Shown here in pieces: positions 62,801-64,000 of a stretch of DNA of 64,000 nt (the first letter of the stretch is position 1; each line of letters begins with the position of its first letter). The notes under the pieces are model-generated. The model had not been told where the DNA came from and made no database searches. It worked only from the letters and a program-made list of their open reading frames with translations. The translations under genes and the position numbers were made by a program. Source of the stretch: Desulfurobacterium indicum (GTDB taxonomy: Bacteria; Aquificota; Aquificia; Desulfurobacteriales; Desulfurobacteriaceae); assembly GCF_001968985.1 (NCBI RefSeq), contig NZ_MOEN01000005.1:1-64000 (forward strand). The letters are read 5' to 3'.

Positions 62801-64000
62801 GCTATCTTATCAACGTTGGAGAGCTCTAAAAGTTTAATTGCAACTTCTCTATCAAGGAATGTTCCTTTTGTTATAACAATGTCACCATCTTCGTTTTTAA
62901 TGTCTTCAGCAATTATGAGAGGCGGAAGCCAATCAATAGAAGTGAGATCTTCTTTTGTTATCTCTTTAAGTTTTTCCTGAGGATAAACCTTTTCGTTAAT
63001 CTTTGCCCTACCAACCCTTGAAAGGTCGTAGTGCTTGGTACTAAAGAACATAGTTTCAAATAGCCTTTTAGCACCTTCAACGGTAGCCGTATCACCAGGT
63101 CTAACCTTTCTAAAAATCTCAACGTAAGCAGCAATAAGGGGATCGTCTATCTTTTCTCTAACTCTGTCTTTCTTCTCTTTTCTTAAAGTGTTAATAATAA
63201 CAGCACCGTAAGGCTTTGCTTTTCTGTGAACTGCCTTAAACTCGGCACCTTCAGGAAGTTTCCTTGAACTTGTTGAAAGTTCCTCATAAGCTTCTTGAAT
63301 GACTTCACCTGTTTCAGGATCTATTAAATCTTCAATTAGGTAGTATCCAAGCATCTCTTCACTGGACTTAACGTTACCTTTTTCATCTACTATTTCACCG
63401 TTTACAATTTTAAATTTCTCTATAACGTCACCGTAGAAGATATCTATAATTTGTTCATCCGTTCTTACGCCAAAGGCTCTTAAAAGATACGTTCCAAGAA
63501 ATCTTCTCTTTCTGTCTATCTTAACGTAGAGAACTTCGTTGTGAGGAATTTCAAACTCTATCCATGACCCCATTGCGGGGATTATGCTTGCAATATCAAT
63601 AATCCTTGCAACCGTTGTCGTTTTAGAAACTTCATTTTTAAAGAAAAGACCAGGAGATCTATGAAGCTGGCTGACAACAACTTTTTGAGTACCATTAATA
63701 ATGAACGTTCCTCTCTCTGTCATGAGAGGAATTTCACCAAAATACATCTTGTTTTCTTTTATAATTGGAGCTATTTTTTCGCCGGTTCTTGGATCTTTCT
63801 GCCACACGTGAAGCTCAAAAAGAACCCTTAAAGGTGCGGTGTAAGAGATACCTCTTTCTATGCATTCGTCAGGAGTGTATTTTGGCCTAAATACAACTTC
63901 CATTCCACAGTTAGGACATACGACTCCTTTTCCACCAAGCCCCTGATATTTTCCACATTTACAGTACCAATCACCTATTTCATAGCCTTTATAGTGAATT
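59875..64000 (-). CDS. rpoB: RNA polymerase beta subunit, N terminus missing at the window edge
   Basis: The frame is open to 64000, giving 1374 codons plus stop; about 100 N-terminal residues are outside. Recognised segments include [52 protein letters not shown] (rifampicin region), [27 protein letters not shown] and the C-terminal [20 protein letters not shown]. The first complete residues encode a four-cysteine ribbon (C-x-C-x12-C-x2-C, 63892-63972) placed just before the conserved [12 protein letters not shown]. This ribbon closely resembles that of RpoC and is absent from model RpoB proteins. Confidence 0.97.
   Translation of the reverse strand, partial: [1374 protein letters not shown]

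Follow-up and report, generated by a model that had tools for sequence, protein, structure and literature searches.

The RNA polymerase β subunit (RpoB) of Desulfurobacterium indicum carries a four-cysteine ribbon on its β1-lobe, which probably goes back to one ancient copying event from rpoC into rpoB and was later inherited or lost. In the course of events that we favour, the zinc ribbon of the β′ subunit (RpoC) would have been copied from rpoC into the adjacent rpoB once, long before the Aquificota split. Descendants in one large clade (Aquificota, Nitrospinota and allies, Acidobacteriota and Dependentiae) would then have kept it or lost it, and the RpoB copy would since have lost the basic loop by which the β′ ribbon holds RNA. 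As RpoC ribbons occur in every phylum examined, the direction of transfer was probably from rpoC to rpoB.

The ribbon was found in a stretch of 64,000 nucleotides of D. indicum DNA (the window), where it is encoded on the minus strand in frame with rpoB, as a preliminary description of this DNA had stated and as the sequence and open reading frame bear out. The complete gene (G000:C5:59875-64239) encodes 1454 amino acids; its frame runs to an ATG at 64239, so that residues 1-80 are encoded on this contig past the window edge (C5:64000-64239). The protein matches the NCBIfam model TIGR02013 over its full length with 1674 bits (cut-off 801 bits). About 28 residues had been described as inserted relative to E. 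coli RpoB, and alignment to solved RpoB chains gave exactly 28 (residues 91-118), which are absent from every one of these chains. The insert falls between positions equivalent to E. coli β 77 and 78, and its flanks align normally. Thus, the placement in an RpoB insert stands, and the span of 63892-64000 initially given for the ribbon is refined to the core listed below. On the ribbon itself no Pfam ribbon family reaches its cut-off, and the Pfam β-subunit domain match starts only after it. As the ribbon is encoded in the window's final 109 bases, it might be an assembly or frame artefact of the edge. We give this practically no credence: the contig goes on to 70,900 bases (6.9 kb past the window), the insert is present in 45 Aquificota genomes and in other phyla, and relatives with 87-98% identity bear identical residues. 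On contig C5 past the window (L003:9751-15901), an rplJ-rplL-rpoB-rpoC cluster apparently stands without a preceding rplK-rplA on the contig, which terminates within a transposase-like frame.

Features of the D. indicum window and related RpoB inserts, with the basis of each assignment
Feature	Position	Strand	Basis or remark
rpoB, RNA polymerase β subunit	59875..64000	minus	window holds residues 81-1454 of 1454; open reading frame and NCBIfam TIGR02013
28-residue RpoB insert (residues 91-118), β1-lobe (protrusion)	63886..63969	minus	phmmer alignment to solved RpoB chains
RpoB zinc-ribbon core (predicted)	63895..63972	minus	sequence; RpoC ribbons are best matches; pLDDT about 90
First knuckle C93-x-C95 of RpoB ribbon	63955..63963	minus	sequence
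Second knuckle C108-x2-C111 of RpoB ribbon	63907..63918	minus	sequence
β1-lobe loop position, possible neighbour surface of ribbon	63736..63765	minus	alignment
rpoC, RNA polymerase β′ subunit	55386..59819	minus	open reading frame and conserved motifs
RpoC (β′) zinc ribbon, proposed parent	59550..59627	minus	16/26 identical; profile-profile E 9e-14
Eight-cysteine RpoB inserts	L079, L081, L087, L088, L114-L120, L122-L124, L185-L205, L257		

The RpoB and RpoC ribbons of D. indicum share the spacing CxC-x12-CxxC, and 16 of 26 aligned residues are identical; the likeness noted in the preliminary description is therefore real, with its count of 16 of 27 corrected to 26 columns. None of 100,000 shuffles that kept the cysteines, or the cysteines and glycines, in place reached the score observed against the organism's own RpoC. 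When the RpoB ribbon was searched with phmmer against 177,635 PDB sequences, all 60 best matches were RpoC (best E 1.7e-5), and a PDB search with an RpoB-ribbon profile likewise placed RpoC ribbons first, again in all 60 best matches. NCBIfam RpoC models match the ribbon within RpoB (best E about 1e-5), and in profile-profile comparison the form with a single ribbon matched the RpoC ribbon with E 9e-14 and module 1 of a two-zinc form, described below, with E 1.5e-9. In nearly every ribbon-bearing genome searched, only the RpoC ribbon, besides RpoB, matches the RpoB-ribbon profile. Together, these data show that the RpoB ribbon is nearer to the RpoC ribbon than to any other ribbon tested. The resemblance appears to be old, because the organism's own RpoC is no nearer to its RpoB ribbon than RpoC of Nitrospinota or Bacillus subtilis (16/26 each) and because the DNA of the two D. 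indicum ribbons agrees at only 50 of 78 nucleotides. A tree of RpoB and RpoC ribbons, as had been proposed, was built from the 26 ribbon columns, and in it one branch (96/84) parts all RpoB ribbons from the RpoC ribbons.

Alignment of RpoB around the site, across Aquificota and other phyla, showed the ribbon to be present well beyond Aquificota. Four cysteines occupy the site in all 60 Aquificota loci examined (45 genomes); families f1 and f2, which form the order of D. indicum, have the form CxC-x12-CxxC, and families f3, f4 and f5 have a longer CxxC-CxxC ribbon. A profile search of 391 genomes detected the RpoB ribbon in many genomes of other phyla. Named bearers in the collection are Nitrospinota, Acidobacteriota, a Dependentiae bin and 'Aquificota bacterium S016_44', which falls outside the phylum of D. 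indicum in the genome set, and several further phyla without names bear it as well. Of 77 genomes from the Nitrospinota phylum, 66 match (30/31 among those of good quality). So do 116 of 119 genomes of a phylum that we assign to Acidobacteriota because it has the same insert as Pyrinomonas (L120, L193); most of these carry a two-zinc insert, about 60 residues long. The motif W-x-C-x-C-G-[EK]-[YF] within CxC-x12-CxxC is common to phyla far from Aquificota. The ribbon was absent from the named Proteobacteria, Myxococcota and Bdellovibrionota loci examined, and from all but one of about 65-70 genomes of other phyla, a set from which known bearers were excluded; the sole bearer there, G137, resembles Dependentiae. 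It is thus not specific to Aquificota, as had been considered, nor is it an insert of all bacteria with no similarity to RpoC: its occurrence is patchy across phyla, and it is RpoC-like. In four other genomes, frames of 2465-2903 amino acids begin as RpoB (L226 in G228, L262 in G199, L263 in G172 and L237 in G175); those of L226, L237 and L262 continue into the RpoC ribbon, which suggests rpoB-rpoC fusions in several phyla.

Acidobacteriota, Dependentiae and one small phylum carry an eight-cysteine insert at the same RpoB site, which probably binds two zincs. Module 2 of this insert is similar to generic double zinc ribbons. Other inserts (L075, L076, L078, L107, L111 and L284) have lost all or most cysteines and largely kept the W...EY..LGG loop, and such losses occur at separate tree positions (L075, L078 and L111, and also L107). 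As the cysteines are gone while the loop stayed in L075, L078, L107 and L111, zinc does not seem to be always needed. The genome bin G402 contains two rpoB genes (L284 and L285), of which the first is Nitrospinota-like and has lost most of its ribbon cysteines, and the second is ribbonless and looks proteobacterial; this pair is probably contamination. In the Nitrospinota family f212 (L282, G396:C81; L283, G395:C32), RpoB has a second, similar and RpoC-like ribbon, GGWECGCGDYIFKGPEDPKTVCEKCKKKV, some 300 residues downstream of the first, probably in a β2-lobe insertion. The module was therefore probably copied at least once inside rpoB, which indicates that copying of such ribbons does happen.

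Gains and losses were judged on RpoB species-background trees built without the ribbon columns. In a careful 65-row tree, every ribbon-bearing RpoB lies inside one clade (support 100/99), which also includes ribbonless Proteobacteria, Myxococcota, Bdellovibrionota and others, and the RpoBs sampled outside this clade have no ribbon. The members of the clade largely coincide with the group named PANNAM (PMC11515920). At minimum, the careful tree requires five changes of the ribbon, of which supported branches force only one. A quick 125-row tree needs six changes, and a tree constrained to keep all ribbon rows together outscores it (p-AU 0.986).

The preliminary description had left the choice between a copy from rpoC and strong convergence. 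An ancient copy is the best reading of our data, and a local or recent copy is not upheld. Convergence, in which an unrelated RpoB insert grew RpoC-like because the demands of a CxC ribbon on one enzyme apply to both, seems rather improbable to us and yet deserves weight, as the comparison spans only 26 columns, a foldseek search with the ribbon fragment gave no significant match, and in Aquificota families f3-f5 the ribbon is of a generic CxxC type and receives from Pfam the scores that any small ribbon would. It has to contend, however, with a shared CxC-x12-CxxC ribbon that includes W-x-C-x-C-G-[EK]-[YF] in phyla far from Aquificota, with RpoC being the best match among all 177,635 sequences, and with shuffles preserving cysteines and glycines that, in single-form lineages, attain the score seldom if at all. 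Had rpoB of the Desulfurobacteriaceae received the ribbon recently, by copying or gene conversion from rpoC, this would account for the GKY and KGVVC stretches of the D. indicum RpoB ribbon, which agree with RpoC and are seldom seen in other RpoB ribbons, and the two genes are adjacent. Nonetheless, Desulfurobacteriaceae RpoB ribbons retain an LGG motif found only in RpoB and group with the RpoB ribbons, and nucleotide identity between the two ribbons is low (50/78). As RpoB and RpoC ribbons split on one branch and RpoC of the same genome is no closer than that of Nitrospinota or B. subtilis, we consider a recent copy to be excluded for practical purposes, with only a very slight chance of being correct.

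The ancient copy may be part of a wider pattern, which we regard as about equally likely to hold or to fail: the β′ ribbon would be a mobile mini-domain that entered β in the ancestor of the large clade, was doubled in Acidobacteriota, Dependentiae and the small unnamed phylum, and was recopied into the β2-lobe insertion in one Nitrospinota family. If so, the polymerases of many environmental bacteria would contain two or three paralogous zinc ribbons, and models based on E. coli have none of these in β.

The ribbon site lies in β-uD1 (E. coli 1-152), that is, the β1-lobe (protrusion), and not at the β′ N-terminus and RNA exit channel, where the RpoC ribbon is located. Of the initially proposed location, the outer face of a polymerase lobe, the lobe is thus identified by alignment as the β1-lobe and not the β2 lobe. 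Structure prediction, which had also been suggested, was run for the N-terminal part of β, and AlphaFold2 modelled the ribbon with local confidence (pLDDT about 90), whether given the N-terminal 602 residues or a fragment of 66 residues. Foldseek with the whole predicted N-terminal part found RpoB; with the fragment, E values were above 1, and β′, RPB12 and Nob1 ribbons were among the weak matches. Judging from its cysteine pattern, the ribbon would bind zinc. Its role may be structural or in protein docking. The β′ ribbon binds RNA, among others via L78 and K79 of its loop (PMC9378689), and the β1-lobe is near the upstream edge of the bubble, so that the RpoB ribbon might likewise touch upstream DNA or exiting RNA. 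We consider this unlikely. The mean charge of the loop between Cys 2 and Cys 3 is +0.56 in RpoB ribbons and +4.48 in RpoC. The value for the two-zinc form is somewhat higher (+1.45), but the single form has no basic loop (-0.1), and RNA binding is therefore not expected of the RpoB ribbons.

A loop position of the β1-lobe listed in the table is a possible neighbour surface of the ribbon, and we take it to be the equivalent of the E. coli IKEQE loop, the docking point of the RID domains of Mfd and CarD. Docking of RID domains on the β1-lobe has been described (PMC7672476, PMC4593161). D. indicum has two CarD_TRCF_RID matches, G000:C33:10296-10466 and G000:C25:17674-17847; one is in an Mfd-sized frame (1101 amino acids) and the other in a CarD-sized frame (166 amino acids). 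RID proteins are present in most ribbon-bearing genomes tested, whereas the six genomes of Aquificota families f4 and f5 that were tested gave no RID match and keep the ribbon, which argues against any simple relation between the two. The idea of the ribbon as a blocker of RID factors was rejected, as RID proteins occur with and without it. Being located on a domain used by Mfd and CarD, the ribbon may alter initiation or transcription-coupled repair in bearers without solved polymerases.

We found no description of the RpoB ribbon in the literature searched, although an earlier mention in older surveys (Lane and Darst 2010, Iyer 2004, Klenk 1999) is possible. A published list of five β insertion sites, restricted to insertions of at least 50 residues, has none in β-uD1 (PMC11515920). 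In several phyla, among them Aquificota, Nitrospinota and Acidobacteriota, the ribbon probably gives RNA polymerase β an additional zinc site. It is also a candidate example of a domain exchanged between the largest and second-largest subunits of the polymerase and, as a rare character, could help to relate deep bacterial lineages to one another.

Like the β-i series of Lane and Darst and the BEAN domains, the insert is present in some bacterial lineages and missing in others. However, BEAN domains have roughly 100 amino acids and occupy the listed sites (PMC11515920), whereas the RpoB ribbon has 28 and another site. The β-i inserts, as cited in PMC2939025, exceed 40 residues, a length that the 28 residues of D. 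indicum do not reach; the Acidobacteriota form has about 60. With the small ribbons of RPB12, L40e and DZR it shares the four-cysteine architecture, and module 2 of Acidobacteriota scores like them, but the RpoB single form and module 1 are nearest to RpoC by profile. The closest likeness is to the RpoC zinc-binding domain, which has the same CxC-x12-CxxC spacing, a W or Y ahead of the first cysteine, CGxY, and GV ahead of Cys 3. The RpoB ribbon differs from it in lying in another subunit and at another site, and in having a neutral LGG loop in place of the basic, RNA-binding one.
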